Part shown: one piece after another, positions 809-64,000 of the stretch
Layout: every line of letters starts with the position of its first letter
Numbering within the stretch: position 1 is the stretch's first letter
From: a virus
IMG/VR virus record: IMGVR_UViG_3300047471_000325
Coordinates: 1-64,000 of that record
DNA: 64,000 nt
Direction: 5' to 3' (one strand)
The notes under the pieces: generated by a model
The model's database searches: none
Seen by the model: only the letters and a program-made list of their open reading frames with translations
What the model was told of the DNA's origin: nothing
Position numbers and translations under genes: made by a program

Positions 809-827
809 CTTCTTCTCCTCAGCGGCG

Positions 828-842
828 CCCGCTGTCTGCGGG
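828..842 (-). promoter_or_regulatory. Leader hairpin, class 1 (copy A)
   Basis: On the minus strand the RNA reads CCCGC-AGACA-GCGGG, a 5-bp stem with a 5-nt loop. It is flanked by a GCG/CGC outer stem with a single unpaired A on the 5' side. It ends 19 nt before the ATG at 808, just upstream of the Shine-Dalgarno sequence. Related hairpins with different but compensating stem bases lie before the genes at 3066 and 54908. The conserved shape and loop suggest a protein-binding or stability element; this is inference. Confidence 0.6.
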
Positions 843-874
843 TCGCGGTTGACGGTGTCGGACTTCATGTAGAG

Positions 875-903
875 AGTGTATAGCAAATCTTTTTAGATGT
901 CTA
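875..903 (-). promoter_or_regulatory. Promoter of the 808 operon
   Basis: Minus-strand TAGACA (898-903), a 17-bp spacer and TACACT (875-880). This matches the pattern TAGACA-N17/18-TANNNT seen at several other places here, and lies in a gene-free AT-rich stretch upstream of the 808 gene. The predicted transcript would start near 868 and carry the class 1 hairpin in its leader. Confidence 0.6.
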
Positions 904-920
904 TAGAAAAATGAGCCTCA

Positions 921-963
921 AATAAAAAATCCGCTAAATCTAGGTGTTTGCTAGACTTAGCGG
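921..963 (-). terminator. Rho-independent terminator
   Basis: On the minus strand a hairpin CCGCTAAGTCTAG / CTAGATTTAGCGG (931-963, 7-nt loop, one mismatch) is followed directly by ATTTTTTATTT (921-930). It sits after the stop of the 1007 gene and before the promoter of the 808 operon, so it separates the two minus-strand operons. Confidence 0.85.
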
Positions 964-1006
964 ACTGTCGGCTCGAGCCGTCGGCTGGTGGTCGGCGCCT
1001 CGAGTC

Positions 1007-1633
1007 TTACATCGACGGCTGCGCGGCCTCGGCCGCCGCCTTCGCGGCCAGCTTGTTGGCGCGATCCTGGGCGCGCTGGGCCAGCTCCGCCAAGGTGGGC
1101 TTCGGCTTGGCCGCCCGCGCGGCCTTACGCTCTGCGGCGGCCGCCTTCTTCTCTTCAGCGCTCAGCTTCACCTTCTCGGCCTTCACCTTCGGCTCTTCGA
1201 AGACGCCGTCGACCACTTCGAAGCTGGCCGGCGCCACGCCGCCCTTGAAGCCCTTCACGACGAAGCGCTGGACGAGCGCTGCGCCGCTGTAATACGCCTG
1301 CTTGCCGTTCTTGCTGGAACTCTTGTAGGTGAGGATCATGTGCTTCTCCTGCTGCGGTGCAGCTGGTGGGTCGGTCGGCGTTATTGCCTCGACCTGATGT
1401 AAGTCTACTACGTGCTGCGTGGGGGTGTCTACAGTTTTCTGCGTTGGCTTCTGCGTGGCGCCTGCCACGTGACGCCCGCGTTCGAACTTTTTCTTCGAGA
1501 CGCCGAGTGGCCGAGCTTCTCCTGCGGGCATCTGCTTACGCATGTCTGCTTCTCCTTCAGTGAACAAGTGCGGCACATAGGCCGGCACGGGGAACGAGAG
1601 CGGCGGGCGGTCGATGATGAAGTCGAGCGTCAT
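1007..1633 (-). CDS. Lys/Ala-rich early protein with nested start codons
   Basis: The frame is open for 208 codons. Three in-frame ATGs each have a good ribosome binding site: 1633 (GGAGG, ATGA-coupled to the previous gene), 1543 (AGGAGAAGCAGAC) and 1339 (AGGAGAAGCAC). A promoter-like sequence lies between the last two. The form from 1339 (110 residues, MILTYKSSSKNGKQAYYSG) has a compact N-terminal part and a C-terminal tail dominated by Ala, Lys and Glu, reminiscent of histone-like or nucleic-acid-binding tails. The upstream segment is basic and of low complexity. I am confident of the 1339 product and less so of the longer forms. Family not recognised. Confidence 0.6.
   Translation of the reverse strand: MTLDFIIDRPPLSFPVPAYVPHLFTEGEADMRKQMPAGEARPLGVSKKKFERGRHVAGATQKPTQKTVDTPTQHVVDLHQVEAITPTDPPAAPQQEKHMILTYKSSSKNGKQAYYSGAALVQRFVVKGFKGGVAPASFEVVDGVFEEPKVKAEKVKLSAEEKKAAAAERKAARAAKPKPTLAELAQRAQDRANKLAAKAAAEAAQPSM
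1402..1431 (-). promoter_or_regulatory. Internal promoter before the 1339 start
   Basis: Minus-strand TAGACA (1426-1431), 18-bp spacer, TAGACT (1402-1407), immediately inside the open frame of the 1007-1633 gene. Transcription would begin near 1395, giving a leader of about 56 nt ending in AGGAGAAGCAC and the ATG at 1339. The element matches the other promoters of the window closely, so the short form of the protein may have separate expression. Confidence 0.5.
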
Positions 1634-1824
1634 GACGCGCCTCCAGCATCTGACGTAACCTCGTCGATCTTCTGCTTGGCCTCGTCGACTGTGTTGGCCC
1701 AGCAGATGTGAAAGCCGTCCTTCTCGACCCAGAATCGTGAGTCTGGCTTCTCTAACGTGAAGAGCGACCAGCGGATCGTGTAGCCTCTATAGATGCAGCG
1801 TTCGTGAACATTGACGGCCTTCAC
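1630..1824 (-). CDS. Small hypothetical early protein
   Basis: A 64-residue protein, MKAVNVHERCIYRGYTIRW, aromatic-rich and mixed in charge. Its end (DEAKQKIDEVTSDAG) looks helical. The start overlaps the stop of the preceding gene (ATGA at 1821-1824) and its stop overlaps the next ATG at 1630-1633, so it belongs to the same translation-coupled string. The pattern of short beta-like segments followed by a helix is common among small phage early proteins. No family is recognised. Confidence 0.6.
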   Translation of the reverse strand: MKAVNVHERCIYRGYTIRWSLFTLEKPDSRFWVEKDGFHICWANTVDEAKQKIDEVTSDAGGAS

Positions 1825-2042
1825 TTGACCCTCGTTACGTAACCGTCGACCACCGTCGCCTCGGCGTACCAGCGGTGCGGCTGCGGATAGTGCGGACCTT
1901 CCAGCGTGATCTTATGCGTGCCGACTTGCACCTGGTCCGTCTTGCCGTACATGTCGTTCGGCTGGTAGACGCTGACCTTCGTGCCGGCGGCGATGGCGTC
2001 CTTGAGGGCTTTCTTCGACGGGTAGTTCGTGGTGGTGTACAT
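1821..2042 (-). CDS. Small hypothetical early protein
   Basis: A 73-residue protein beginning MYTTTNYPSKKALKDAIA. An N-terminal helix (SKKALKDAIAAG) is followed by beta-like segments ending in the basic VDGYVTRVK. The start has AGGAGCAGC upstream. It overlaps the following gene by 4 nt. Proteins with this opening (a residue string followed by KKALKDAV) are frequent in phages as unassigned small proteins; I do not assign a function. Confidence 0.6.
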   Translation of the reverse strand: MYTTTNYPSKKALKDAIAAGTKVSVYQPNDMYGKTDQVQVGTHKITLEGPHYPQPHRWYAEATVVDGYVTRVK

Positions 2043-2067
2043 GATGCTGCTCCTTGAAGTTCAATGC

Positions 2068-2823
2068 CTATGAAATCTGTTTACGTGTTGAAGTCCCGAC
2101 GCCCTTCTGCCCGAGCTTCATCTGATCTGCCGCCGCACGACCTGCACGATAGCCAGCCGCGCTGTTGCCGCCTGTCGCTGCTGCGCGAATCTTGCTCTTA
2201 TACTTCTCGTCGATGTGCTTCGAGACTCGCGTCAGCGCGTTGTCGAGACGCATGAGCGCGGTGCTGCTGTTCGTCGCCTGCGCAACCTCGACCTTGCGCG
2301 CCTCGCGAAACCGCTCGCCGATCCTGCCGATGAAGCCACTGAGCCAGCTGGCGCGAAAGCCGCCTGACTCCAGGTGCTGCCCGCCGCACTCCTCCTTCCA
2401 CCAGTCTTCGCGCGCCTTCATGCTCATACGATCGGCTGCGGATGCCAAGACGCCGTAAGCATACTCAGCGACTGCGACGTGCTCGCGCGTGCCGACGAAG
2501 GTGATGAAGTTACTTCCGCTGTGAACCAGAAAGCGGCAGAGGTGTGCCGGCGCCACGATCCTGGCGAGCGCCTCCTGCCAGCCGACGCGTACGCGGCTGT
2601 ACTTGATGCCGTAGGCTCTGAGGTCGACCTGCTGCTCGATGATCGGCTCGTCCTTCACGCCGCCGATCGGAATGTCGACCTCGGAGAGTTCATGCTGGAT
2701 GAGCAGTCGGTTGATGGCCTCGGCGAACGCCTCGGCGGCAGCGGAGTTGCCGAGGGCGGCTTCGCCTTCGCGCGCCGCCTTCAGCTTGGAGAGCTTGTCG
2801 AGGACCTTGTCGATGGGAGACAT
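2068..2823 (-). CDS. DUF2786-type protein
   Basis: A 251-residue protein. The N-terminus (about residues 1-50: an amphipathic helix with DKLSKLKAA, an Ala-rich stretch, then LLIQHELSEVDI) follows the DUF2786 pattern, in which a helix and an EA-rich segment are followed by a helix ending in HxLS. The central region carries HSGSNFITFVGTREHVAVAEY, typical of the C-terminal part of the longer phage members, followed by helical segments and a basic tail. It abuts the 2824 gene directly. DUF2786 proteins are common in phages, function unknown. Confidence in the family is moderate to good. Confidence 0.7.
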   Translation of the reverse strand: MSPIDKVLDKLSKLKAAREGEAALGNSAAAEAFAEAINRLLIQHELSEVDIPIGGVKDEPIIEQQVDLRAYGIKYSRVRVGWQEALARIVAPAHLCRFLVHSGSNFITFVGTREHVAVAEYAYGVLASAADRMSMKAREDWWKEECGGQHLESGGFRASWLSGFIGRIGERFREARKVEVAQATNSSTALMRLDNALTRVSKHIDEKYKSKIRAAATGGNSAAGYRAGRAAADQMKLGQKGVGTSTRKQIS

Positions 2824-3066
2824 CTACTTGACCTCCTGCTCTGCCCAGCGGATAACGTTAGCGACTTCTTCGATCTTCCCCGCGAGTACGGCCAGGTTCT
2901 GGCAGGTCGCCGACATATTGAACGGACCGTGATCCGAGTAGCTGTCGCGCTTTACGATGGCGCTGCGGGCGTCGGCGACGCGCTGCTCGAGCGATTCCAG
3001 TTCGCGGCTGTAACGATCCTTGAGGTTTGCCAGCTCGTTGCGGAGGTCGGTGATGTTGAGTGTCAT
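2824..3066 (-). CDS. Coiled-coil early protein
   Basis: An 80-residue, almost fully helical protein (MTLNITDLRNELANLKD), with heptads in LRNELANLKDRYSRELESLEQRV suggesting a coiled coil. It is the first gene of the left minus-strand operon. AGGAGAAGCAG precedes the ATG, and a class 1 hairpin and promoter lie upstream. It could be a dimeric accessory or regulatory protein; no family is recognised. Confidence 0.65.
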   Translation of the reverse strand: MTLNITDLRNELANLKDRYSRELESLEQRVADARSAIVKRDSYSDHGPFNMSATCQNLAVLAGKIEEVANVIRWAEQEVK

Positions 3067-8113: not shown

Positions 8114-10080
8114 CCCCCGCCGGCGACTTCCGCTTCGAGTCGAAGCCGAACAGCAACGGCCACGCTGAGCCCGAACCACGCACAGCCGAAGTCGTACAGA
8201 GCATGCTCCGCACGCTCGACGTCTTGCTCGACCGTCAAGCGTTCATGAAGCAGGCGGGGTTTCAGTTCGACAGCAAACGCGATCTGTACGCGATCTTCGG
8301 TTACGACCGCATCATTACTGGCCGTCAGTTCCGCGACGAGTATGCACGTGGCGGGTTAGCAAAGGTCATCATCGACACGTACCCAGAGGCGACATGGCGT
8401 GGCGGCGTCGAGGTCTACGAGGATGAAGATACGAAGACGAACACCGCCTTCGAAAAGGCGTTTGATGAGATCAATAAAAAGCATCGTATCTTCTTCAAGT
8501 GTCAAGCCGCAGATATACTCGCGCAGCTGAGTACCTATTCGGTCATGCTCATCGGTGTACCAGGAGACTTGAGCGAAGAGATGCCGCGCGGCAATCCCAC
8601 GCAAATGCTTTACTTGCAGCCGTTCTGGGGCGGCGGCGGGCCAGGTGACCAGAGTCGCGGCACGAACATGGGTGTCCAGTCGATGGACACCGACGTCACC
8701 ATCGAGACGTTCGACATTGATCCCACCTCTGAGCGCTTCGGCGAGCCACTGACCTACCGCATCCGACGCACCGACATCTCGTCACCATTACTTGCGCGCT
8801 CAGTCCACTGGTCGCGCATCATTCATATCCCTGCGAAAGGCGCACTTGACAGTAACGTCTATGGCCCTCCTGGACTTGAGTGCGTGTGGAATCTACTCTT
8901 CGACTTAGAGAAGATCACTGGCGGGACGGCTGAGTCCTTCTTCCAGCGCGCCAAGCAAGTGCTGCATGCGAACATCGACAAAGATGTAATATTCACCGAT
9001 CCGCAGATGGCGGCGATGAAGTCGAAGTTCGAGGAGTACCAGAACAATATTACGACATTCATTCCGACTCGTGGCGTGGACGTGAAGTTCCTTGAATCGT
9101 CGAGTGCGAAGTCTGCTGCTGAAGCCGATGTGATCTTGACGCAGATCGCGGGCACGACAAAGATCCCGAAGCGCATCTTGACCGGCTCTGAGATGGGCGA
9201 ACTCGCGAGCACGCAAGACGCGGCGAACTTCGACAGCCGCGTGAAAGATCGCCGCACAGGCTATGCTGAGCCTGTCATCATGCGCCCGCTTGTTGATCGA
9301 CTTATTCAGTACGGCTATCTTCCGACCCCAGCGCAGTACGAAGTGGGCTGGCCTGTCGAAGAGACGATGGACGAGAAGGGCAAGTCGGACTTCGCGATGA
9401 CGTTGGCGAACGTCAACAAGACCTTCGACGGCGTTGTGTTTACTGAAGACGAGATCCGTGACATGGCGTTCGACAAAGAGCCGCTGCCGACCGTCGATAC
9501 CAACCAACTGCTCTCTGAAAGCCAGAAGGCGGAGATCGCCGTCAAGCTTTCGATGGTCAACAAGCAGATGGGCATCACGGTCTTCACCGACGACGAGATC
9601 CGCGACATCACCTATGGCTTCTCGCCGCTGAGTGATGACGAGAAGGTGCCGATTGGCGCGCCAGAGCGCATCTCAGTCACCGCACCGCCGCCGATTGGTG
9701 AGGATGGGAAGCCGATCCCGCAAGATACGCTCGGTCAGCCTATCGCGCCAGCAAAGCCCGTCGCTGTCAAGCCAAAAGTCCCACCTGCACTGAAAGCCGC
9801 CGCTGACGCGGGCATGCTCAGCGTGCTCGAAGCGGCCATCGTCGCGAAGGACCGCACGACGATTGACCGCATCCTCTTCGGGGCGATGGCGATTACGCCT
9901 GAGTCGGCCGTCTCGATGCTCTCCGACAAGCAAGGCGCCGAGGCGCTGGTCTTGGCGAAGCAGTTCGTCGTCGTGCTTGGCGATACGCTGGCGCAGTACG
10001 ACGTCGAGCGACTGTTCATCGAGTTCGAGGATTACGTCCAGCGGCATGGGACGGGGTTCGATGGGCATCGCGATGCTTAG
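8107..10080 (+). CDS. Portal protein (DUF1073 type)
   Basis: A 657-residue portal protein. Features shared with the DUF1073 portal group include FGYDRIITGRQFRDEY near 57, the DIDP...RIRR region, SRIIHIPAKG near 240, and TGSEMGELASTQDAANFDSRV near 360. It should form the dodecameric ring through which DNA enters the capsid. After about residue 430 two related segments follow each other (VFTEDEIRDMAF and VFTDDEIRDITYG with similar flanks), a local duplication. The C-terminal 120 residues are an Ala/Pro-rich tail. It lies directly after the large terminase. Confidence 0.9.
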   Translation: MVAPAGDFRFESKPNSNGHAEPEPRTAEVVQSMLRTLDVLLDRQAFMKQAGFQFDSKRDLYAIFGYDRIITGRQFRDEYARGGLAKVIIDTYPEATWRGGVEVYEDEDTKTNTAFEKAFDEINKKHRIFFKCQAADILAQLSTYSVMLIGVPGDLSEEMPRGNPTQMLYLQPFWGGGGPGDQSRGTNMGVQSMDTDVTIETFDIDPTSERFGEPLTYRIRRTDISSPLLARSVHWSRIIHIPAKGALDSNVYGPPGLECVWNLLFDLEKITGGTAESFFQRAKQVLHANIDKDVIFTDPQMAAMKSKFEEYQNNITTFIPTRGVDVKFLESSSAKSAAEADVILTQIAGTTKIPKRILTGSEMGELASTQDAANFDSRVKDRRTGYAEPVIMRPLVDRLIQYGYLPTPAQYEVGWPVEETMDEKGKSDFAMTLANVNKTFDGVVFTEDEIRDMAFDKEPLPTVDTNQLLSESQKAEIAVKLSMVNKQMGITVFTDDEIRDITYGFSPLSDDEKVPIGAPERISVTAPPPIGEDGKPIPQDTLGQPIAPAKPVAVKPKVPPALKAAADAGMLSVLEAAIVAKDRTTIDRILFGAMAITPESAVSMLSDKQGAEALVLAKQFVVVLGDTLAQYDVERLFIEFEDYVQRHGTGFDGHRDA

Positions 10081-31590: not shown

Positions 31591-31904
31591 ATTACAAAGA
31601 CAAGACGAACGGCGATATTGTCACAGCGTGGCAGTGGGATGGTAAAGACGAAGTGTCACTTAAACAGATGCTCTTCGGACTGCTGTCATATACCGTTGAG
31701 GATGGCGAAGTCTCTGTGCGGCTTGGCAGGTTTGACTATCTTAAGATCGTGCCCGGCACATTCATCGTCAATGGTCCTGCGACCAATCAGCTTCGCACGT
31801 TCAACGCTGGAATCTTTGCCAAACAGTTTGAGAAGATCGTCGTAGCAGCACCAGCACCGACGCAGATTACTCATGATACGGAGAAGAAGGAGAAGCAGTC
31901 ATGA
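31587..31904 (+). CDS. Hypothetical protein with compact beta fold
   Basis: A 105-residue protein, MNYKDKTNGDIVTAWQWDGK, resembling small phage proteins that begin with an aromatic-rich strand (VTAWQW) and end in a charged helix. ATGA overlaps on both sides. Possibly a regulatory or accessory protein; not assigned. Confidence 0.55.
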   Translation: MNYKDKTNGDIVTAWQWDGKDEVSLKQMLFGLLSYTVEDGEVSVRLGRFDYLKIVPGTFIVNGPATNQLRTFNAGIFAKQFEKIVVAAPAPTQITHDTEKKEKQS

Positions 31905-33190
31905 AAAACCTCCTCTGGGTCGGCGATGCAGTCGTCCCCTCTGGCTTCGCTACGGCGACGCACAAGATCCTCGAGCATCTGATACCGCACTATAACATCA
32001 GTGTGCTTGGGATGAACTACAATGGCGATCCGCACGAGTACCCGTATCACATCTACCTCGCTGGCGTTGGTGGTGATGGCTTCGGCGTGAAGCGCATCGC
32101 GCAGATCGCGTTGAAGACACAAGCTGACGTCATCGTCATCCAGCAAGATGGGTGGAACATCCCAGGATATATCCACTATCTTCAGCAGTTCGAAGAGACG
32201 AAGGACATCCCTGTCGTGGCTGCAGTGGCCGTCGATGGGAAGAACTTCAACGGACAATGGCTGCGCGGCGTGTCGCTCGCAATCTTCTGGACGCAGTTCG
32301 CGCTCGACGAAGCGCGGGCAGGTGGTTACCACGGTCCGGCGCAAGTCATCCCACTTGGCGTCGACCTCGACACCTACAAGCCGCTCGACAAGATCGAGAC
32401 ACGCAAGACGCACGGTGGCGCACTGGCACTCAGTGCCGTGCTCGGCAACCCGGACAATTTCATCGTCGGTAATGTGAACCGCAATCAGCCGCGCAAGCGC
32501 TGGGACTTGACGATCAAGTATTTCGCCAAGTGGATCGAAGACAACAACATCAATAATGCATGGCTCTACATGCATTCGGCGCCGACGGGTGACATGAGCG
32601 TGAATGTCATCGACCTCGCGCGCTACTACAATTGTCTCGACCGCACGCTCTACATCGAGCCGCCGACGTTCACCGGGCTGACCGAAGAGGAGATGTGCAA
32701 GACCTATAACTGCTTCGACGTCTTGATCAGCACGACGCAGGGCGAGGGGATGGGGCTGCCGGCGATGGAGGCGATGGCGTGCGGCGTGCCGTGCATCCTA
32801 CCCAACTGGTCGGCCTTTGGCGATTGGGCGCGTGATGCAGCGGTGCTCGTACCATGCACCTCGACGCGGGTGGATTTCCCTTACGTGAACGTCATCGGCG
32901 GCGTGCCGGATGAGGGTGAGTTCATCGCAGAACTCGATAGGGTTTATCACGATAACAATTACAGAATGCACCTCGCATCGGGTGGTTTACGCCGCGTGCA
33001 TGAGGATCGTTTCCGCTGGGCGACCATCGGGTTGCGATATGTTGCAGCTATCGGGGAATTGCTCGCGGAGGTCGAGGCGAAGCAAGGCGACAAAGTCAAT
33101 GCTGAACTTCTTAAGAAGGAACACGAAGAGATGCAGCAACGCCTCGTCGAGCGCCGGATGAAGATCATGAGCGGCGAGGTGCAGGCGTGA
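31901..33190 (+). CDS. Family 4-like glycosyltransferase (GT-B)
   Basis: A 429-residue protein. An N-terminal Rossmann half (VGDAVVPSGFATATHKILEH) is followed by VIPLGVDLDTYKP, NRNQPRKRWDL (195-205) and GEGMGLPAMEAMACGVPCIL (281-300). The last is the EX7E nucleotide-sugar signature of GT4-type retaining enzymes. The C-terminal 50 residues form a helix rich in Lys and Glu. It sits directly before the neck/tail genes, overlapping by 4 nt. Confidence 0.85.
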   Translation: MKNLLWVGDAVVPSGFATATHKILEHLIPHYNISVLGMNYNGDPHEYPYHIYLAGVGGDGFGVKRIAQIALKTQADVIVIQQDGWNIPGYIHYLQQFEETKDIPVVAAVAVDGKNFNGQWLRGVSLAIFWTQFALDEARAGGYHGPAQVIPLGVDLDTYKPLDKIETRKTHGGALALSAVLGNPDNFIVGNVNRNQPRKRWDLTIKYFAKWIEDNNINNAWLYMHSAPTGDMSVNVIDLARYYNCLDRTLYIEPPTFTGLTEEEMCKTYNCFDVLISTTQGEGMGLPAMEAMACGVPCILPNWSAFGDWARDAAVLVPCTSTRVDFPYVNVIGGVPDEGEFIAELDRVYHDNNYRMHLASGGLRRVHEDRFRWATIGLRYVAAIGELLAEVEAKQGDKVNAELLKKEHEEMQQRLVERRMKIMSGEVQA

Positions 33191-52170: not shown

Positions 52171-52947
52171 TTACATCTCGCTCGCTGTCGCTGCGTGCTG
52201 GCCTTCGAACTGCGCCGGGTCGAAGCTGTCCGGGTCAGCGTCGTGATGGACCATCTCGGGCGCGATGTCCTTCACAGCCTCGAACATCTCCTCGCCGAGC
52301 GCGTAGTCGGCCTCACTGACCCACCCTGCTTGTTCGACTTTGTAGATCTGATGCGGCTTTGGCGTCAGCTTCACGCCAGTGGTAATCTTTAGCCGTACGG
52401 CGAAGCAGTCGCGGTTGGCCATCGTCGCCAAGCCCCAGAGCGTCTTCGCGGCGTTGATGCCAGATGACTTGAAGCTCAGTGCGATGATCTCGCGCGCTGG
52501 CAGGATGACGGCCAAGAAGTCACGAAAGAGCGTCGCCTTCGGGCGGTCGGTCTTCTTGTCGCCGCTCGTACCCCACCGCAGACGTTCGTCGCCGATTGGC
52601 ACATTCGGGTCGACGACTCCACCGCCATCGTCGATGCTGCGAAACTCCATTGCGCGAAGCGGCATCTTGCGCACGACCTGCACATAGACTTCTTTGCCGT
52701 AGCTGACGCCGGTGATCGAGTTGAAAAGGTCGCCAGCCTTCAGCCCAGCGATGCGCGCCGGGTCGCCGTCGGTTACCTGCGGGCTGAGCGCCTGTGCAAG
52801 CGCCAACCTAGGGATCATGAGGTCGCTTTGGACGGTGTCCTCGAAGCCTCTACGGCTGCCCTTCTTGATGTAGTTGGGTGCGGGCGCGAGAGTGCCAGCT
52901 TGCGTCGTGGCGATGTCAGTCGTTGCGTTCTTCGTTTCAGTGCTCAT
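52171..52947 (-). CDS. Recombination/replication-associated protein, possibly ssDNA-binding
   Basis: A 258-residue protein. MIPRLALAQALSPQVTDGDP, LKAGDLFNSITGVSYGKEVYVQVV and ALSFKSSGINAAKTLWGLAT are shared with a phage group encoded next to recombination and replication genes and suspected to have an OB-fold ssDNA-binding role. The C-terminus is acidic (EMVHHDADPDSFDPAQFEG), as in many SSB-like proteins. Its gene is followed by the structured leader at 52071-52164. Confidence 0.6.
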   Translation of the reverse strand: MSTETKNATTDIATTQAGTLAPAPNYIKKGSRRGFEDTVQSDLMIPRLALAQALSPQVTDGDPARIAGLKAGDLFNSITGVSYGKEVYVQVVRKMPLRAMEFRSIDDGGGVVDPNVPIGDERLRWGTSGDKKTDRPKATLFRDFLAVILPAREIIALSFKSSGINAAKTLWGLATMANRDCFAVRLKITTGVKLTPKPHQIYKVEQAGWVSEADYALGEEMFEAVKDIAPEMVHHDADPDSFDPAQFEGQHAATASEM

Positions 52948-53176: not shown

Positions 53177-53794
53177 CTACCCCCGATTCAACCGGACCAT
53201 AACTTTTGCCGTCACCTCGACGCCGTCCGGCGGAGCCTCGCCAGCCAGAGTGCGTTCTTTCGCGATGGCATTCGTCGTCATCCAGAGCAGCTGCATCTGC
53301 GGCTCGTAGCCGTTATCGATGCACCAATTCCTGAATGCCTCGCGGTCAACGATCTTGCTATAAGGCTCCATGTAGGTACTGACCGAGGCGCCCGACTCCA
53401 GACGCAGGCTGGCGACGCCTTCCTCTTCCATCTTCTCGACCATCAGCCGCTCGTAGGCGTCTTGAAGCAGCTGGGCGGCGGACTTCAGGTCGCCGAGCGT
53501 GTCGACGACCGTCCTGGTCGCGGCGTAGGCAGAGGCGAAGGCGGCGGCGCTGCGCTTGTCACCGACCTGCTGCTTGCCCAGCGCAAGGATGGACGCGACC
53601 TGCGTTTTGACGTCAGCGAGGCGCGAAAGCATCTGCACGTCGATGTTCCAGTTATTGTCAAGCATGCAGCTGGCAGGAGTCGCGAGAATCTCGTCACGCA
53701 CCTTGTTCAGCAGCTCGACTCTGCCTGGATCGTCACCGAGGTACTTCGGCAGATCCTTGACGACCGATGCGTACTTCGTCTGTCTTGTCGCCAT
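53177..53794 (-). CDS. Gp157-like helical protein
   Basis: A 205-residue helical protein, MATRQTKYASVVKDLPKYLG. The C-terminal part (VSTYMEPYSKIVDREAFRNW, CIDNGYEPQMQLLWMTTNAI, AKERTLAGEAPPDGVEV) is conserved in phage proteins adjacent to recombination genes and related to the Gp157/host-nuclease-inhibitor region. CGAGGAGGATTTG precedes the ATG at 53794, which overlaps the upstream stop by 1 nt. Confidence 0.65.
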   Translation of the reverse strand: MATRQTKYASVVKDLPKYLGDDPGRVELLNKVRDEILATPASCMLDNNWNIDVQMLSRLADVKTQVASILALGKQQVGDKRSAAAFASAYAATRTVVDTLGDLKSAAQLLQDAYERLMVEKMEEEGVASLRLESGASVSTYMEPYSKIVDREAFRNWCIDNGYEPQMQLLWMTTNAIAKERTLAGEAPPDGVEVTAKVMVRLNRG

Positions 53795-54186
53795 CAAATC
53801 CTCCTCGGATCGAGCAGCACGCTCTCTTCGCACACCCAGTCAACGATTTCAACCTCGCGCTCCGGCTGCGCGGGTACGATCTTGTGTCCGACGACGATCT
53901 TGCGGCAGACCTGCTCGCGACTGACGTTGATGTCGAGCTTCACGTCTTCGCTGAACGTGCGGCGCAGCGCGAACCACGAGTCGTAGTATTCTTTCGACCA
54001 CCCGCCAAGGCGCGCGAGCGCGGTCAGTTCGCTGCGCTCGACGAAGATGTTGCCGTCGATGCTGCAAGTCTTGATCTGCGGATGCTGCTCGAAGAAGTCG
54101 GCCATCTTTCGCAGGCCGTCGATGAAGTCGGCGCGGCGCTTGGCGGCGGCGTAGTCGTAGGTCGGGTCAGGGGTTTCACTTGTCAT
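53794..54186 (-). CDS. Hypothetical early protein
   Basis: A 130-residue protein, MTSETPDPTYDYAAAKRRAD. A helical start is followed by IKTCSIDGNIFVERSELTAL, and by RTFSEDVKLDINVSREQVCR near the end. It resembles small unassigned phage proteins with a mixed fold. It is ATG-coupled to the Gp157-like gene. Confidence 0.55.
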   Translation of the reverse strand: MTSETPDPTYDYAAAKRRADFIDGLRKMADFFEQHPQIKTCSIDGNIFVERSELTALARLGGWSKEYYDSWFALRRTFSEDVKLDINVSREQVCRKIVVGHKIVPAQPEREVEIVDWVCEESVLLDPRRI

Positions 54187-55040: not shown

Positions 55041-56603
55041 TTATTCGTCTTTCAGCGCCTTGACCCAGCCTGCCGCTGTCCGCTGTGCGATATCCTCGCC
55101 GTTACGCCGCGTCAGCAGGATGTCGCGGTCAATGGTGTGCTGCCCCTTCGGACCGACGGCGATGATGTCGTAGTACGCGATGGGAAACTTTTGTCCTGGA
55201 CCATAGACACGATCGAGCGTCTGCGCCGAGCGTCCAGGTGAGTAGCCGCTGCTCATCGTCACGCACGTATGTGCCGCGCACATGTCGAGGCCGAAGCTGC
55301 CCGTGCCCTCGATGCCGGCGACGAAGACTGGACCAGTCGGCGATGTCTCGGGCTTCAGTAGTGCAAGAGCGCGGAGTCGTTCGGCCTTCTTCTGGCCGCC
55401 CATGATCGTCGCTGTCTCGAACTGCGGGAACTTTACTTTGACTTCTGCCTCGGCGCGCAGCACCTCTGCTCTGAAGCGTCCCCACGCGACGAGGTGGAGG
55501 TTCTCGTCCTCAGCGAGCCGCTGCTCGATGAACCAGAGGAGGACGTCGAGCTTCTCGTGGCCGATCTCGCGAATAGGATCAACGGACCTGTTCGTCGGTG
55601 GCCAGTCTGGGTATTGAACATCGATGCCAGAATCTTCGACCCCACCGATGAACCCACCCGTGATCTGCGACAGCCGCAGCGCCTTGATCGCCGCCGTCGC
55701 TGAGGTTGCGACGTCGTTTGACGACAGCCACACGACCATCTCCTCGCGCATGTCCTTGTAGGCCTTCCACGTCTCCGGCGTCAGCGTCGTCGTCAGCGTC
55801 ACCGGATCGAGCTTTGGCGGGAGATCGAGACAATCTTTTTGAAGACGCCTGACCGTGACTGGCGCGAAGCGTCGCTGCAGGTCGTCGAGGTTCGTCCACC
55901 CATTGACCTTCATGATCGGCCTGCCCCACGCGTTGACCATCGGACTGCCGCCGTTGCGCAGCACAGGACCTTGTATCGCGTATCTGGCCTTGAAGTGCGT
56001 CACGTACTTCGTGCCGATGATGCTCTCGTGAAGTATGTTCCCCTGTGAAAAAAGGTCGAGCGGCGAGTGAAACAGCGGCGTGCCATTGAGCAGCACGACG
56101 CGCCCGCATGCCCGGCGCAGCTGCAGGCAGGCCTTCGTCTGCTCGGCGGCGTGGTTCTTGACGAAGCTCGACTCGTCGAGGACGAGGAGCGTCTTCTGGT
56201 TGCAGAAGGGCAACAACTGTATTAACCGGTTCTTGCTGCGCAGGAACTCGAAGTTCGTTACCGCCCACTGCAATCGACGTACGCCTGGAGCATCATTCAG
56301 CCATTGGCGACATCGAGCGTGGAATTCAGATACTTTAATGGGCAGGTCTAGCCAGGCGTGCTTGGCGATCTCGCCGATCTGTTCATCGTACCACACGTCG
56401 CGCACGGGCGCCGGGGAGACGACGATCACCTTATCGATGACGCCGGCCTCGAAGAGGAACTGCGCGGCATCGACGATGATCTTGCTTTTTCCGGTCCGCA
56501 TCTCCGACGCGACGAAGAAGTACGGATGGTCGATCACCGCCTGCACATCCTCACGTTGATGCTGGAACGGTGCAAGACGACACCGACTGAAGTCGAGCGT
56601 CAC
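55041..56603 (-). CDS. SNF2/DEAD-like helicase
   Basis: A 520-residue protein with GTG start at 56603 (GAGGAAGGC upstream, GTGA overlap with the exonuclease stop). Motif I is SEMRTGKS (about 33-40), motif II LLVLDESSF (about 140-148), motif III LLNGTPLF, and the C-terminal half has FVAGIEGTGSFGLDMC and SAQTLDRVYGPGQ (motifs V-VI). These are features of SF2 SNF2-type ATPases common in phage replication modules. It likely remodels or unwinds DNA. Confidence 0.8.
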   Translation of the reverse strand: MTLDFSRCRLAPFQHQREDVQAVIDHPYFFVASEMRTGKSKIIVDAAQFLFEAGVIDKVIVVSPAPVRDVWYDEQIGEIAKHAWLDLPIKVSEFHARCRQWLNDAPGVRRLQWAVTNFEFLRSKNRLIQLLPFCNQKTLLVLDESSFVKNHAAEQTKACLQLRRACGRVVLLNGTPLFHSPLDLFSQGNILHESIIGTKYVTHFKARYAIQGPVLRNGGSPMVNAWGRPIMKVNGWTNLDDLQRRFAPVTVRRLQKDCLDLPPKLDPVTLTTTLTPETWKAYKDMREEMVVWLSSNDVATSATAAIKALRLSQITGGFIGGVEDSGIDVQYPDWPPTNRSVDPIREIGHEKLDVLLWFIEQRLAEDENLHLVAWGRFRAEVLRAEAEVKVKFPQFETATIMGGQKKAERLRALALLKPETSPTGPVFVAGIEGTGSFGLDMCAAHTCVTMSSGYSPGRSAQTLDRVYGPGQKFPIAYYDIIAVGPKGQHTIDRDILLTRRNGEDIAQRTAAGWVKALKDE

Positions 56604-57475
56604 GCCTTCCTCACTGGATACACCCCAAGCTTCGCCTGCGCCGCGATCCGCTTCGTCTCGACTGGAAAGTCCTTGCTCAGGATCCAATCCCAGTATCCGA
56701 CGTCGGCCGCCGTCATAGGCTTGCCGCCGTACTTCCCCCAGCGCGTGAAGCAAGGGACGTCCTTGACGTAGCAGAACTTTCCCTCGAGGTCGATCATCGT
56801 CGGCCACTGGAGTGCGTGCAGTGCGTCGAGGTCGTGGGGCAGTAAGTCACCATCGTCGTTGAGGCTTGCGTTAAGTTGCAGTTCGATGACTTCCGCAACA
56901 GCTTCGACGTCCGCCATCGCACCGTGCGCACCTGGGAATGCTTGATCAGTATACTTCTTGTAGAGGTGCGTCAGGCTGCGCGGCACGAGCAGCGCCTCGA
57001 GCCGGTCGGCATCGATGATTCGCGCATCACCAATCGACCACTCGACGCCGGCACGAGCGAACTCGGCCGAGAGGATGCGGAGGTCAAAGCGGATGTTTTT
57101 GCCGGCATAGTCGACGTTGGTGAAGCCGACGGCGAGATTTGGCGCGAGGTGCTTGAAGGTGGGCCAACCACGCGGATCGATGCAAGGCCAATTGACGCAT
57201 TCATCTGACTTATCGATTGGATGACCTGCTAGTTCAGCATTGCATGTCCGACACAGCCAGAAGTCCTCATCCTTGTAGCCGTGCACCTCGGTTGCTTCCG
57301 CCGGGATCGGCACGCCCGGATTGACCAATGTCCGATACTTCTTTACGTCGCGCCCATCGTGATAGTAGACCTGGAACGCCAGCTCCACGATGCGGTCATT
57401 CGTCGTGTCAAGGCCTGTCGTCTCGGTGTCGAGGACGATGAGCGGACGGGGGAGGGTGAGGAGGTCGGTGATCAT
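56600..57475 (-). CDS. DnaQ-like 3'-5' exonuclease (DEDDh)
   Basis: A 291-residue protein starting MITDLLTLPRPLIVLDTETT. Exo I LDTETTGL gives Asp16 and Glu18, exo II AGKNIRFDLRIL gives the third Asp, and exo III HGAMADVEAV supplies His and Asp. It has an inserted Cys/His set (CRTCNAELAGHPIDKSDEC). The ATG at 57475 is chosen from its 4-nt overlap with the upstream stop. As the nearby polymerase has a degenerate exonuclease domain, this protein may provide proofreading. Confidence 0.8.
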   Translation of the reverse strand: MITDLLTLPRPLIVLDTETTGLDTTNDRIVELAFQVYYHDGRDVKKYRTLVNPGVPIPAEATEVHGYKDEDFWLCRTCNAELAGHPIDKSDECVNWPCIDPRGWPTFKHLAPNLAVGFTNVDYAGKNIRFDLRILSAEFARAGVEWSIGDARIIDADRLEALLVPRSLTHLYKKYTDQAFPGAHGAMADVEAVAEVIELQLNASLNDDGDLLPHDLDALHALQWPTMIDLEGKFCYVKDVPCFTRWGKYGGKPMTAADVGYWDWILSKDFPVETKRIAAQAKLGVYPVRKA

Positions 57476-57651
57476 GATTCGCACACCTCATCGAAATCGA
57501 TCGCTGTGGTGCATTCGTGGCCATCGACCCAGACAGTACCTTCATCCGCGCTGAAAGCAAACTCAAGGATAGAACCATCTTCAAAGGTTAGCTTCAATCC
57601 GATGTCACCTTGATCCGTCGGTTCGAGTTTGATGAGCTTTTTACCGATCAC
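57472..57651 (-). CDS. Small acidic early protein
   Basis: A 59-residue protein beginning at GTG 57651 (VIGKKLIKLEPTDQGDIGLK). The frame is bounded by GTGA and ATGA overlaps on both sides, which decides it is real. The sequence is acidic and beta-like (FSADEGTVWVDGHECTTAI). Unassigned. Confidence 0.55.
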   Translation of the reverse strand: MIGKKLIKLEPTDQGDIGLKLTFEDGSILEFAFSADEGTVWVDGHECTTAIDFDEVCES

Positions 57652-58457: not shown

Positions 58458-58795
58458 AAGTCCTCAACCTGTGTGATAACGCGGACTCCAGGTAGGTGGT
58501 GAAAATTACTCGACCTAGCGCCGAGTACGACCAGTCGCTTACCGATAGCGGCGGCGTACCCCATCTCGAAGTGCCGACCTCCGGTGCCAGCATTATGCCA
58601 GGCAATTGGATTCCAGAGTAGCAGTACATCGCAGCGCTCGATGTCCATGATATCCATCATCGCAGCATCAGGCCCATCGTCATCGATCTGTGTCAGCCAC
58701 CTACTCGTTACGCTGTGACCAAGCTTCTCGATGGCGTGCATGAGCGTGATAGCGTCATTCCGAGTGGGGTATGGGGCTGCTATATACACTCTCAT
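58454..58795 (-). CDS. Nucleoside deoxyribosyltransferase-like protein
   Basis: A 113-residue protein. MRVYIAAPYPTRNDAITLM, IERCDVLLLWNPI and GGRHFEMGYAAAIGKRLVVLG match the 2-deoxyribosyltransferase/RCL-type Rossmann fold, with the acidic catalytic residue probably in HFEMG. Such enzymes split or exchange bases on deoxynucleotides. In a phage this may support unusual nucleotide supply or base modification. Confidence 0.7.
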   Translation of the reverse strand: MRVYIAAPYPTRNDAITLMHAIEKLGHSVTSRWLTQIDDDGPDAAMMDIMDIERCDVLLLWNPIAWHNAGTGGRHFEMGYAAAIGKRLVVLGARSSNFHHLPGVRVITQVEDL

Positions 58796-59091
58796 CGTAC
58801 TGCCTCATCGAGCACGTCGGACGCAAACTTCGAGACGCTGACGCCCTTCGCATCTGCCTGCTCCTTCAGCGCATCCTTGGTCTCGGCGGTGACGTTCACG
58901 CCGAGGAACTTCTCGCGCCCCTGCTTGACGTATGGCTTCCAGGCGCCGGCGGCTTGAAGGATCTGCAGGATGCGTTGACGCCCGAGCTGAAACTCCGACG
59001 CACACTGCTTGAGCGTCTTGCCCGATGCGTAGCAGTCGCAGATCATCTTGTTGCGAGTCGTCATCTGTCGCGCCCTCTCTTCGTCAGTCAT
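58792..59091 (-). CDS. HTH plus ribbon-helix-helix regulator-like protein
   Basis: A 99-residue protein, MTDEERARQMTTRNKMICDC. The middle has a helix-turn-helix-like segment (LKQCASEFQLGRQRILQILQ). The C-terminus (NVTAETKDALKEQADAKGVS, then SKFASDVLDEA) looks like a CopG/Arc-type ribbon-helix-helix. The combination would make a DNA-binding regulator. The start overlaps the end of the preceding 53-residue gene by 8 nt. Confidence 0.6.
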   Translation of the reverse strand: MTDEERARQMTTRNKMICDCYASGKTLKQCASEFQLGRQRILQILQAAGAWKPYVKQGREKFLGVNVTAETKDALKEQADAKGVSVSKFASDVLDEAVR

Positions 59092-59245
59092 CTTCGGCAT
59101 CCTCATCGTCAATGTCATAACCTTCAAGATTGCTTTCGTTAAATTCATGCGGATGCAGACTCTGATCTTTCTCATGCATCGGGCAGAACGTCTTCTCGGT
59201 CATCGCCACGCACCAGGTGATCGCACAGGGATACATAGACGTCAT
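59084..59245 (-). CDS. Small acidic Cys-rich protein
   Basis: A 53-residue protein, MTSMYPCAITWCVAMTEKTF, with CPMH in the middle and a strongly acidic end (YDIDDEDAEDD). The ATG overlaps the sliding clamp stop (ATGA). Cys/His residues suggest a metal site. Unassigned. Confidence 0.5.
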   Translation of the reverse strand: MTSMYPCAITWCVAMTEKTFCPMHEKDQSLHPHEFNESNLEGYDIDDEDAEDD

Positions 59246-60312
59246 CCTTTCAGCAACATGATTACGGCGATGTGGTCGTCTCCATCGGTGAGGAGTAGCG
59301 GACTCTTAGCGTCCTTCAGCTTCAGTGTGATGTGCGACTGCGTCGCCGCGTTGAGAAAGTCCAGTACGAAGCCTGCGTTCACGCAGACCTTCAGCGGCTG
59401 GCCGTCATACTCACCGGCAACAACCTCGCTTGCCGCGCCGACCTCAGCCGACTGCGTTGTCAGCTCGAGCTGTCCAGCACTAAGCGATAGATACGTTGCC
59501 TTGTTGTCTTCCGACACCAGCACGATGCGCCGCAGTGCGGCAGTCAACGCCAGCCTATCGATCGTCAACATCAAGGCATTGTCCTGCGGGATGATGCGCT
59601 CGTAGGCGGGGAACTTCCCCTCCAGCATGCGTGAGACGAGCAGCCTACCACCAGAGGCGAAGAAGATATGGCGCTCGCCGACGGTCAGCTCCATCGTCCC
59701 CTGCTCAGAGCCACCGGCCAGCACGTCGAGCGCCTTCACTGGTATAGTAATGCTACCATCCGGCCCGCTGCGACTCATTGTCGCCAGCGCGAGACGCCTG
59801 CTGTCGGTTGCGACCATCGCCGCGCCGTCGCCACTCATCGTCAGTAGGGCGCCCTTCAGGATGTACTTGCTGCTGGCCGCGTTGATGGCGTAGCGCGTCT
59901 TGGCGATCAGCATGCGAAAGTCTGCGGCGTCGAACTGATACGTCGTGCCGCTGGCCTCGGGTAGCGCCGGGAAATCGTTAACGGATAGCGATGAGAGGCG
60001 AGACTTAAACGCGCCACAGCTGACTGCTGCATGCATCTTGTCTAGCTGCATGCTGACGTCGGCATCAGGAAACTGCTCCACCAGTGAGAGCAGCTTCGCG
60101 GCCGGTAGCGCCACCTCGCCAGGCTCGTCGACGCGTGCCGCGCAGTCGGTCGACAGGCCAACCTCGACATCCGTCGCATAGAGGTGCAGACCGTCACTGT
60201 CACCGCGTAGGCGAACGTGGCCGAGGATGGCGATCGCTGGCTTGCTTGGGACGACGCGGTTGAGAAGTCTCAATTCAGCCGCGAGGACTTGTGAGTTTAC
60301 AACGATGTGCAT
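59242..60312 (-). CDS. dnaN: DNA polymerase III beta subunit-like sliding clamp
   Basis: A 356-residue protein, MHIVVNSQVLAAELRLLNRV, with AAGGAGCAGC before the ATG. Three repeated domains are visible, with features such as GHVRLRGDSDGLHLYATDVE, SKYILKGALLTMSGDGAAMVATDSRRLAL and FPAYERIIP. It should form a ring that holds the polymerase on DNA. The C-terminus ends IAVIMLLKG, a little shorter than the usual MPMRL. A bacterial-type clamp next to a family A polymerase is unusual, though known in some phages. Confidence 0.9.
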   Translation of the reverse strand: MHIVVNSQVLAAELRLLNRVVPSKPAIAILGHVRLRGDSDGLHLYATDVEVGLSTDCAARVDEPGEVALPAAKLLSLVEQFPDADVSMQLDKMHAAVSCGAFKSRLSSLSVNDFPALPEASGTTYQFDAADFRMLIAKTRYAINAASSKYILKGALLTMSGDGAAMVATDSRRLALATMSRSGPDGSITIPVKALDVLAGGSEQGTMELTVGERHIFFASGGRLLVSRMLEGKFPAYERIIPQDNALMLTIDRLALTAALRRIVLVSEDNKATYLSLSAGQLELTTQSAEVGAASEVVAGEYDGQPLKVCVNAGFVLDFLNAATQSHITLKLKDAKSPLLLTDGDDHIAVIMLLKG

Positions 60313-60320
60313 GCTGCTCC

Positions 60321-60710
60321 TTATGTTCGATGCTCTTTCAACACTTGCTCCACCAGCCACCGCATATCAAATCCCACGCACCACGCCTCGGGAATCAAAT
60401 CCCACCCGTCGCGGTCCATCACCGTCCTCGGATGCACGATCAGCGTCTGCTCGATGCCGCGGTGTTCTTTCCAGATAACATAACGGCAATGGCCTGCAGC
60501 GGCAAGACGAGCGCAGCAGAGTTGCTGGTCACCTGGACTATCGAAGTGCGGCGTCGCGTGCTTTCCTTCCCAGCGACTCGTCCGTCCGCAGCCGACGACC
60601 TCGATGTCGGGAGCGCCGTTCGTCGCATAGGCAAGCAGCATAAAGCTTGGCGCTTGACGCTTCAACTCTTTCCTAAATAACGACTTCAATTCGCCTTCAC
60701 GCTTGGACAT
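60321..60710 (-). CDS. VRR-NUC-like nuclease, probably leaderless mRNA
   Basis: A 129-residue protein. GAPDIEVVGCGRTSRWEGK contains the Asp, Glu and Lys of the PD-(D/E)xK core, followed by DQQLCCARLAAAGHCRYVIW. This is the pattern of the VRR-NUC family in phages. No ribosome binding site precedes the ATG; the promoter at 60717-60745 places the transcription start at or next to this ATG. It may act in recombination or DNA repair. Confidence 0.75.
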   Translation of the reverse strand: MSKREGELKSLFRKELKRQAPSFMLLAYATNGAPDIEVVGCGRTSRWEGKHATPHFDSPGDQQLCCARLAAAGHCRYVIWKEHRGIEQTLIVHPRTVMDRDGWDLIPEAWCVGFDMRWLVEQVLKEHRT

Positions 60711-60716: not shown

Positions 60717-60745
60717 AGACTAGCACAAAATTTTAGTGGTGTCTA
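60717..60745 (-). promoter_or_regulatory. Promoter of the VRR-NUC gene
   Basis: TAGACA (60740-60745), 17-bp spacer, TAGTCT (60717-60722). The -35 overlaps the stop codon of the polymerase gene. Only 6 nt lie between the -10 and the ATG, so transcription should begin at the start codon itself. Confidence 0.65.
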
Positions 60746-63700
60746 CTTACAATCCGCCCAGTTCTTTCCAGTCCCACATTCCCACAAGATCGGTACTTTC
60801 AGCGGAAAGCTCTGCGCGTTCAGGATCGCCGAGACCTTCTCTTTCGTCTCCGGCGTCGTGGCGTCACCAAGTACGGCGTCGTGATTCGTGATGCGCAGGA
60901 TGAAGCCTATCTCCTTACGCTGCGCGTGCAGCTCGACGAGCTTCTGCTTCATGATGTCGGCGCCGGTGCCCTGCAGCACTCGGTTGAGACCGATGTATGG
61001 CTTATAGTTGTTGACGCAGCGACTTCGTCGTCCGAGCAACGTCTTGACGTAGCCGCGGTGCTGAAACTGTCGGTGCAATATGTCGTTCTTCTTGCAGTAC
61101 TCGTCGCACTCGTTCTTCATCAAGTGCGAAGCACGATCCAGCAGCGCGCCAGCCTCTGGGTGCGCCTTCTTGTAGGCAGCCTCGATCTCCTTGATGGTCT
61201 TCAGCCTCGGGTCATCCCAGCGCTTTGCTCTGCGTATCTCTTCGCCGACGCGCTCCGAGATGAAGCCCATCATCACGGCAAGCTTGATGCTCTTTGCGCC
61301 ATACTGTGCCGCGAAGTTGTAGCTCTTCGTGTGCGTATAGTTCATGTCGGGCTTGTAGGCGACCAGCATCTCTTGCATCTTCTTGTGAAATGACATCCAC
61401 GGGTCGTCTTTATAGGCTTGAAGCAGCTTAGCGTTACCCGAATATTGCACGAGCAGTCGAAACTCGATCTGCGCGGCATCACCTTCGAAGTACTCGCCAG
61501 AGCCAGGCACGAACAGACGACGGGGGAAGAGTTCGTCGCCGAAGATCTCACCGTGATTATAGGCATTCGGCACCTGCTGAACGATGCCGATCGAGAAGCG
61601 TCCGCTTACCGTGCCGCCGTCGTCGCTCGCCAGCTGATTGATGTTATAGCGAAGAACGCCATCTTGGATGTGCTCTGGGTACGCCTTAAAGATCTTGCTG
61701 TTCAGCGACGCATACTGACTTGCGCGCTGCCCCTTGCGAACCAGCGGATGATCGACTTCGTTCAGCACGCTCTCGGAAAACGAGTCTGGTACTACTAAGT
61801 GTAGCGACTCGATGAGCCGCTTCCACCCTGCCGCCGTATGTTCGAATGCGAAGCCACATTCGCGGCTGACCTCCCACAGCAGCCGATCGTGCTCGGCCAT
61901 GCATTCGCGGCCGTACTGTTCGAGCAGCAGCACGTCGATCGGACTGCCGTTCTTCTCCATCTCGACGACGGTCGGGATGACGGCGTCTTCGAGGTCGTGT
62001 ACCGCGCGCAGTTCCTGCTTACTGATCTCAGGATCCATGACGGCGCGCAGCCTACCAACGAGTCGCGCTGTCGCCCGCTCACGCTCTGCTGCCTGCGCTG
62101 CCGTAAATCGATGATGCTGCGTCTCGTCGAGTCGCAGTGCAAACTGCTCGCCTGGAAAGTAGTCGGCTGCCAGCAGGTCGAGACTGAAGCGCTTGCGACG
62201 GTCGTCGAGTAGAGCCGCCGTATGTTGTACGTCGGAGAACGTACAACCTTGTTCTTCAAGGTCGATGCCCCACTCGCGCGCCACGTGGACGTCGAACTTC
62301 GTCTTGCTATTAACAATTTTCTTACCGCGCAGCTGCTCCAGCGCCCAGCGCTTGACGGTCTCTTCACTGAGGTTGCCATCAGCGAAGCCGAACGGCAGGA
62401 AACGACACAGCTGCCCGTCAAGCGTGCTTACCGTCACGCCGCATGGCCTGTCGCCGCCGGCCCAATTCAGGCCGGTGGTGGCGAAGTTCAGAACCACTTC
62501 GTCGATGCCGGTGAGGTCAGGCGGCTCGTCTGGCACGTAGTCAGTCGGCGATGACGCATCGAGAAACTGTGCCAGCGTCTGCCCTGAGCGCGCTTCTTCG
62601 AAGAGCGTCTCGGAGGTATCGGCCGGCATCTGCTCGACGACGAGGGGCTCGAGCCACACTGTCGCCAGCGGGATCAGTTGCTCGCGATGCTGCTTGATCG
62701 TCGCGCGCTCGACGTCAGTCAGGCTGCTTGACTCTGAAACGAAGAACTTTCCGTCTCGCGTCAGCAGGCGGTGGCTGTTCAGGGCCAGCTCAGCCTTGAA
62801 TCTAACTGGGTCGAAATCAGTCTCAGGCTCCTGCGGCCTGGATTCCGGCTGAGGACTGGCTAGGGCCGGCTGTTCGGAGGTCGGGCTAGACTTCTCTAGG
62901 CTGGGCTCGGGCCCGGCAGGGACAGGCTGTACTGCCCGGATGAAGCTCAGCGCGGAGATGGTCGGTTTGGAGCTCGCCAGCTGGCTCTGCTGTATCGGGC
63001 GGGGCCGTGCATCGTCGAGCGGCATGGCGTCCAGCGTCAGGTCGTAGATATTCGTCAGGTCAGCGTCAGATCGGAGCTTTAGCACGTTGCGGCCATATTC
63101 TTGACCGAATGCGCGATAGTCGACGCTGTGTTGCCAACGCTTAATGCCCTCTTCACTTGATCCGAACTTCCGCTCGACAGTCGTACAGTCTGGGTGCTGC
63201 TCACGTAGACTCTCGGCCATCAGCCAGCGACCGTCTCTCGACAGAATACTTCGTCCTACGTCGCATGGCGTCAGACGAGAGTCGTAGCCGTCGTTACACG
63301 AGGCGCACTGTTGACATGTAATGCAGTGCTCCTGCCAGTCCGCTTCGACTCCACCTGAACCCTTATAGAGTTCGTCGGCGTTGCCGCCCTTCATCGTCAG
63401 GGTCGGCTTCTTGTACATCAAGAACGCGTTGAAGAGTACCGTACAGTGCCCGTCTTTCAGGATTCTCAGACTCAGGTCAGTGTCCTCATTATAGCGCCCA
63501 CGCCAGCGCATCGGCGTGCCGTCAGTATTCGTTAGATCGTTACGCAGGAGAATGCCAGAATAGCACCGCGTATTGAGCGTGATCGGCTTGATCTTGGCAC
63601 CTTGCTTGCGCGGCGCAAAATAATCGTAGTTAAATGCCGCCATCGCGACATCTTCATAGCGGTCGACCCAGTCCTCGATGGCGCAGTGTAGGATACCGCT

Positions 63701-64000
63701 GTCGACCTCGACCTTCAGGTTGTCCTGAAAGCGACAGAAGCCCGAGATGTTATCATCGAAGATCCAGTGACGCTTTGCGCCAGTCGCCACTGCATGATCC
63801 CAGACGAAGTTACGCGCCGGGATACTCCCTTGCCCGAGGTTGCTGAATGGCAGAACGATGATCTTCTCACGCGGCATAACACGCGCATACTGCTCGAGAT
63901 CTTGCGGCTCGATGACAATGTGATATGGCACGTGGATAAATTCTTCGAAGCACTTCTGCGTGAGACGTGTATCTGCACGGTTCTTGCTGATGATGTAAAT
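60743..64000 (-). CDS. Glycosyltransferase fused to family A DNA polymerase (partial)
   Basis: One frame open from beyond the window edge to 60743, at least 1085 residues. Numbered from codon 63931: residues 1-290 (with about 23 more upstream, including IYIISKNRADTRLTQKCFEE) resemble the TET-associated GT-A glycosyltransferases, with IFDDN (57-61) and NEDTDLSLRIL (148-158). A cysteine cluster (203-223) and a Pro-rich linker follow. Residues 470-620 resemble a DEDD exonuclease that has lost residues (LNFATTGL at 481-488). Polymerase motifs are GDAAQIEFRL (817-826), KSYNFAAQYG (869-878) and TNHDAV (1015-1020). It probably replicates phage DNA; the attached glycosyltransferase suggests linked base modification. 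Confidence 0.8.
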   Translation of the reverse strand: MYIISKNRADTRLTQKCFEEFIHVPYHIVIEPQDLEQYARVMPREKIIVLPFSNLGQGSIPARNFVWDHAVATGAKRHWIFDDNISGFCRFQDNLKVEVDSGILHCAIEDWVDRYEDVAMAAFNYDYFAPRKQGAKIKPITLNTRCYSGILLRNDLTNTDGTPMRWRGRYNEDTDLSLRILKDGHCTVLFNAFLMYKKPTLTMKGGNADELYKGSGGVEADWQEHCITCQQCASCNDGYDSRLTPCDVGRSILSRDGRWLMAESLREQHPDCTTVERKFGSSEEGIKRWQHSVDYRAFGQEYGRNVLKLRSDADLTNIYDLTLDAMPLDDARPRPIQQSQLASSKPTISALSFIRAVQPVPAGPEPSLEKSSPTSEQPALASPQPESRPQEPETDFDPVRFKAELALNSHRLLTRDGKFFVSESSSLTDVERATIKQHREQLIPLATVWLEPLVVEQMPADTSETLFEEARSGQTLAQFLDASSPTDYVPDEPPDLTGIDEVVLNFATTGLNWAGGDRPCGVTVSTLDGQLCRFLPFGFADGNLSEETVKRWALEQLRGKKIVNSKTKFDVHVAREWGIDLEEQGCTFSDVQHTAALLDDRRKRFSLDLLAADYFPGEQFALRLDETQHHRFTAAQAAERERATARLVGRLRAVMDPEISKQELRAVHDLEDAVIPTVVEMEKNGSPIDVLLLEQYGRECMAEHDRLLWEVSRECGFAFEHTAAGWKRLIESLHLVVPDSFSESVLNEVDHPLVRKGQRASQYASLNSKIFKAYPEHIQDGVLRYNINQLASDDGGTVSGRFSIGIVQQVPNAYNHGEIFGDELFPRRLFVPGSGEYFEGDAAQIEFRLLVQYSGNAKLLQAYKDDPWMSFHKKMQEMLVAYKPDMNYTHTKSYNFAAQYGAKSIKLAVMMGFISERVGEEIRRAKRWDDPRLKTIKEIEAAYKKAHPEAGALLDRASHLMKNECDEYCKKNDILHRQFQHRGYVKTLLGRRSRCVNNYKPYIGLNRVLQGTGADIMKQKLVELHAQRKEIGFILRITNHDAVLGDATTPETKEKVSAILNAQSFPLKVPILWECGTGKNWADCK

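Follow-up and report, generated by a model that had tools for sequence, protein, structure and literature searches.

Glycosylation or methylation of their DNA allows phages to evade restriction and CRISPR, but even for T4 the extent to which such modification keeps time with replication is unsettled. The virus record analysed here raises the question of whether the two processes can be joined in one polypeptide. Within the window, which comprises bases 1 to 64,000 of the 65,926-base record, a minus-strand frame is stop-free from 60743 up to the window end and encodes both a glycosyltransferase (GT) and a DNA polymerase.

In the full record the gene is a single frame of 1180 aa (P0001; 60743-64285, minus strand), which the window truncates. 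Its ATG is at record position 64285, beyond the window, with GGTGGAGG upstream. Codon-position composition is coding-like across the whole gene and also within the linker; the other two frames of the same strand are interrupted by 43 and 58 stops. From N- to C-terminus, P0001 consists of a TAGT-type GT, a Cys insert, a disordered linker, a 53-aa mini-domain, a second disordered linker and a Klenow-like family A polymerase. Pfam profiles PF20691 (TAGT) and PF00476 (DNA_pol_A) match residues 94-301 (133.7 bits, cut-off 27.5) and residues 836-1178 (83.6 bits, cut-off 34.3), respectively. An AlphaFold model built from 47 sequences (mean pLDDT 83) is confident for the GT, the mini-domain and the exonuclease/polymerase domains, and the linkers between them are disordered. 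The preliminary description had read a TAGT-type GT-A domain, a Cys cluster (CxxCxxCx10C), a proline-rich linker and a family A polymerase in one frame, and had named sequence beyond 64000, models of both halves and a search of related phages as informative. The single frame holds in the window and at full length, every element named is present, and the models and the search agree with it, as detailed below. The parts of the gene, with the evidence for each, are as follows.

60743-64000, minus strand: in-window part (residues 96-1180) of the GT-polymerase fusion gene (open reading frame and full record)
63020-64000, minus strand: TAGT-type GT module, residues 96-422 of 1-422 (Pfam, alignment to stand-alone phage GTs, GT-A fold)
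63263-63316, minus strand: Cys cluster C324-x2-C327-x2-C330-x10-C341 within the Cys insert (sequence comparison)
62822-63013, minus strand: first disordered, Pro-rich linker, residues 425-488 (pLDDT <50)
62663-62821, minus strand: folded mini-domain within the linker region, residues 489-541 (pLDDT ~90, order H-E-E-H-H)
62540-62653, minus strand: second disordered linker, residues 545-582 (AlphaFold)
62561-62581, minus strand: QTLAQFL, residues 569-575, a candidate motif for binding the sliding clamp (motif pattern)
62006-62500, minus strand: 3′-5′ exonuclease domain, predicted inactive (alignment)
60746-62005, minus strand: family A polymerase domain with intact catalytic residues (Pfam, Foldseek, alignment)

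Relatives were recovered only with alignment queries, as a single-sequence search returned none. Alignment-guided searches identified the same fusion in four more IMG/VR contigs, each from another metagenome (L012, 3300011441_000013; L150, 3300020195_000103; L179, 3300038441_002473; L180, 3300046533_000687). These proteins share 56-62% overall identity with P0001 and have no internal stops, and in each of the five GT fusions both halves score above their Pfam cut-offs. All family members are uncultured contigs, and more than 100 other relatives of the GT, from viral and bacterial contigs, occur without an attached polymerase. An assembly chimera of two genes, or a stop or frameshift missed between them, was a natural concern for an architecture known from a single metagenomic contig. 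Against it, the frames from five metagenomes remain open through linkers that differ in length and sequence, and they share no internal start codon preceded by a Shine-Dalgarno site that could give rise to a free polymerase. Since four other contigs at 56-62% identity carry the same fusion, a join of this kind is excluded for practical purposes, and on comparative sequence grounds the GT-polymerase fusion is real.

The GT half (residues 1-422) is ~40% identical, end to end, to stand-alone GTs of Aeromonas, Vibrio, Tenacibaculum and Pectobacterium phages, and the alignment reaches their natural C-terminus. Among 36 sequences, the catalytic-type motif D177-D178-N179 is invariant and the block Y265-N266-E267-D268-T269 is invariant or nearly so. 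Foldseek matches are GT-A enzymes (SpsA, GnT-I and chondroitin polymerase). The Cys insert separates the core of the GT from the C-terminal part; a CxxC occurs in this stretch in 5/5 polymerase-fused GTs and in 0/114 stand-alone GTs. The reference for the TAGT (TET-associated glycosyltransferase) family, T6 beta-glucosyl-HMC-alpha-glucosyltransferase, is a DNA-modifying GT-A enzyme (PMC13216743). P0001 resembles it in passing the Pfam cut-off for PF20691, in GT-A fold and in end-to-end homology with stand-alone phage members, but differs in its fusion to a polymerase, its Cys-rich insert and the lack of a recognised hydroxymethyl-base source in the contigs.

Several features of related GT genes were also observed. 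Stand-alone relatives often adjoin ParB-like genes. In many genomes the small N-terminal module of the GT (GMPEF...VHF...TKSIWFP) forms the end of a distinct ORF further upstream, ParB-like on visual inspection (L031:5536-6231, L093:5542-6219, L100:5554-6252, L113:5536-6216 and others; that of L093 has no Pfam match). Two stand-alone relatives, L019:5761-7500 and L023:5839-7527, carry a C-terminal uracil-DNA-glycosylase (UDG)-like domain (phrog_12275, 5e-32; weak Pfam match of 4e-4 for L019). In L180, a second, separate TAGT gene (8339-9145) is encoded near the GT-polymerase, whose GT half is strongly diverged.

Between the GT and the polymerase, the 53-residue mini-domain is shared with the unfused relative L159. 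In most fused polymerases a TLAQFL/SLxxFL motif directly precedes the exonuclease domain; its counterpart in unfused relatives is an N-terminal MxSLFDxL. A TLAQFL/SLFDxL-type pattern, picked post hoc, occurs in 13/33 sequences compared with a mean of 0.18 in 2000 shuffles. The linker motif may be a clamp-binding motif.

The polymerase half retains the motif A (D936), motif B (K987/F991/Y995) and motif C (H1135-D1136) residues and matches Klenow (1d8y, E 2e-28), with DpoZ (7pbk) also among the Foldseek matches. In its exonuclease domain the Exo I Asp/Glu are replaced by N600/A602 and the Exo III Asp by Thr, and this is the case in 5/5 GT fusions; the equivalent DpoZ residues D26/E28 belong to the catalytic set of that enzyme (PMC8599892). 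Because these acidic residues are replaced, the built-in exonuclease domain of the GT fusions should not proofread; an active 3′-5′ exonuclease is frequent among family A polymerases but not obligatory. A Z-genome polymerase was considered and rejected: the DpoZ profile NF038380 scores 136.6 bits against an NCBIfam cut-off of 500, and a PurZ-like adenylosuccinate synthetase (PF00709) had no match in the ten fusion contigs described below, some of which may be partial (controls 14/14). P0001 thus shares the Klenow-like fold and polymerase catalytic residues of phage family A polymerases (PHROG 17; DpoZ of phiVC8, PDB 7PBK), but differs from them by its lost exonuclease site, its N-terminal module, a score below the DpoZ cut-off and the lack of a detected PurZ. 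The polymerase domain also contains H-x5-C-x3-C-x6-H (residues 1054-1071; window ~61073-61126), a possible metal site conserved in the inner clade of polymerases and missing from more distant relatives.

The genes next to the fusion belong to a replication module.

60321-60710, minus strand: small gene adjoining the fusion, a position conserved in relatives (no Pfam match)
59242-60360, minus strand: DnaN beta sliding clamp (Pfam)
58792-59175, minus strand: small gene, RHH-like, belonging to the same module (matches weak and under cut-off)
56600-57484, minus strand: separate DnaQ-type exonuclease (RNase_T) with intact DTETTG motif (Pfam)
55041-56807, minus strand: replication-module helicase of the SNF2 type, with a 44% identical counterpart in the L012 contig (Pfam)

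DnaN is encoded in 10/10 fused-polymerase contigs and also in the contigs of L154 and L159, which lack an N-terminal enzyme. In the inner clade, RNase_T accompanies 8/8 polymerases with a damaged exonuclease site and 0/3 with an intact site. A separate DnaQ-like enzyme as a general rule for exonuclease loss was nevertheless rejected, as the wider set has RNase_T beside intact sites and lacks it beside some damaged ones. The G000 and L012 phages have the polymerase, clamp, SNF2 helicase and large terminase in common, and most other structural genes are without a match. Minus-strand genes near the record ends (64286-65926; window 1-3066) continue the replication module in the order found upstream of the fusion in L012, which suggests a circular or permuted genome. 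Elsewhere in the window, a second glycosyltransferase of the Glycos_transf_1 / GT4 type (31901-33190, plus strand) lies within the structural gene block, and relatives of cyanophage Pam3 gp34 (52171-52947, minus strand; above cut-off) and gp33 (53177-53833, minus strand; just below cut-off) are encoded.

Searches with the polymerase half uncovered relatives with other N-terminal enzymes. The closest relative of the window polymerase, L152 (73% identical), and L175 each encode, in one frame with this polymerase and ahead of it, a DNA methyltransferase (phrog_498, ~1e-71; Pfam N6_N4_Mtase just under cut-off). This module is homologous to phrog_498 phage DNA methyltransferases, although the profile itself includes no polymerase and the module in L152 and L175 is joined to one. 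A second, different methyltransferase-like module with the motifs DPCAGWGGRM and TSPPYYD and weak profile matches is found in L174, L156 and L223. The enzyme-polymerase fusions therefore number ten (five GT, two phrog_498-type and three of the second methyltransferase-like type), and neither L154, L159 nor any more distant relative has an N-terminal enzyme. A PLP-enzyme-like gene is encoded shortly upstream of the methyltransferase-polymerase gene in L183:3612-4292, L187:3905-4594, L197:2216-2905 and L184:2632-3318 (phrog_7093 threonine dehydratase at 1e-36; the Pfam PALP match, 3e-5, is under cut-off), and is possibly part of a modification pathway.

In the polymerase tree the window sequence is sister to L152 (bootstrap 100, SH-aLRT 98). 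A single clade of the five GT-fusion polymerases is rejected (p-AU 0.0013), whereas a single clade of the five GT halves is compatible with the data (p-AU 0.68), the constrained tree having the higher likelihood. Because the polymerase halves do not form one clade while the GT halves fit one, modules and polymerases have recombined, and the phylogenies indicate that N-terminal modules are exchanged among polymerases. An independent GT capture in L180, suggested by a first quick tree, was not retained, as the AU test permits a single clade and L180 has the Cys insert too. We consider it somewhat better than an even chance that these proteins represent a phage replicative polymerase lineage with interchangeable N-terminal GT and methyltransferase modules, so that the replicase itself would modify the genome and a one-domain swap would be enough to alter the chemistry.

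The reading that we favour, and hold to be reasonably probable, is that the fused protein is a replicative polymerase with an exchangeable N-terminal DNA-modifying “writer” acting at the fork. A long flexible tether would place the TAGT-type writer on the polymerase N-terminus. The polymerase half, its own proofreading site lost, probably works with the phage DnaN, to which the motif preceding the exonuclease domain would bind, and probably also with the separate DnaQ-like exonuclease. The clamp would hold the polymerase, and the GT, mobile on its disordered tether, would have access to nascent DNA, which would be glycosylated as it emerges and presumably hidden from host nucleases. Sister phages, in which the same polymerase carries a DNA methyltransferase, point to the writer as an exchangeable module. 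Phages with such writer-polymerases thus probably mark their DNA during copying. The fusion, its conservation in five contigs, the catalytic residues, the dead exonuclease site, the module exchange and the co-occurrence with the clamp are read directly from sequence; we infer enzymatic activity, DNA as the acceptor, clamp binding, coupling to synthesis and a protective role.

A precedent for glycosylation beside the replisome is T4 alpha-glucosyltransferase, which co-purifies with the gp45 clamp, although expression and enzyme activity set the share of glucosylation and the clamp interaction is not its main determinant (PMC13216743). The idea is the same, but the T4 enzyme is a separate GT-B protein that binds the clamp non-covalently, whereas P0001 has a GT-A domain covalently joined to the polymerase.

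The fusion could instead serve co-expression, keeping two operon enzymes in equal amounts with no mechanistic coupling at the fork. That GT and polymerase are elsewhere separate proteins, and that long disordered linkers fix no geometry, would fit this explanation; we regard it as unlikely, given that three kinds of N-terminal module, two methyltransferase-like and one TAGT, occupy one place, that a clamp-like motif is retained in the linker and that the Cys insert is limited to fused GTs. Less likely still, the polymerase would serve only as an anchor for the GT, which would glycosylate a protein, the dNTP pool or a host polymer and not DNA bases. GT-A folds do serve many acceptors, and no base-hydroxylating enzyme was found in the contigs, but TAGT, the nearest characterised family, acts on DNA (PMC13216743, PMC13390438). 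We argue that the GT would act on DNA, because methyltransferases hold its position in relatives and because it belongs to TAGT.

No GT- or methyltransferase-polymerase fusion of this kind is described in the open-access full texts searched, and neither a paper on Caudoviricetes polymerase swapping nor one on bacterial polymerase diversity mentions such a fusion; within that literature, the statement in the preliminary description that no example was known is upheld. Each part comes from a known family, and the architecture is novel. With five GT and five methyltransferase-type contigs, it is a family of cases rather than a single one. This, the dead exonuclease site, the module exchange and the linker motif go beyond the preliminary description. 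A covalent writer-polymerase makes the timing of modification relative to replication directly testable, module swapping suggests replicases whose mark changes through exchange of one domain, and the fusion marks out the P0001-type TAGT branch, whose members stand alone in many genomes, as a strong candidate for an enzyme that acts on DNA.

The acceptor hydroxyl, the attachment point of the sugar, is the main gap in the writer-polymerase reading, because no match was found to a thymidylate-synthase-fold enzyme in the ten fusion contigs, which may be partial (valid control), or to ThyX and 2OG-FeII_Oxy_3 in the five GT-fusion contigs. The Tet_JBP profile also gave no match in the contigs, but its control was silent at the strict limit as well, and absence is not claimed. 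Partial contigs, a host-supplied base or new chemistry may account for the missing source. The ParB-like neighbours of stand-alone GT relatives, the minor part of the clamp interaction in T4, the weak matches of the second methyltransferase-like module and the restriction of the family to uncultured contigs also weigh against the writer-polymerase reading. A short way downstream of the GT-polymerase, L012 encodes a UDG-like gene (8270-8707) and an MT-A70 adenine methyltransferase (8638-9237), and MT-A70-like relatives are also found in L180, L182 and L197.
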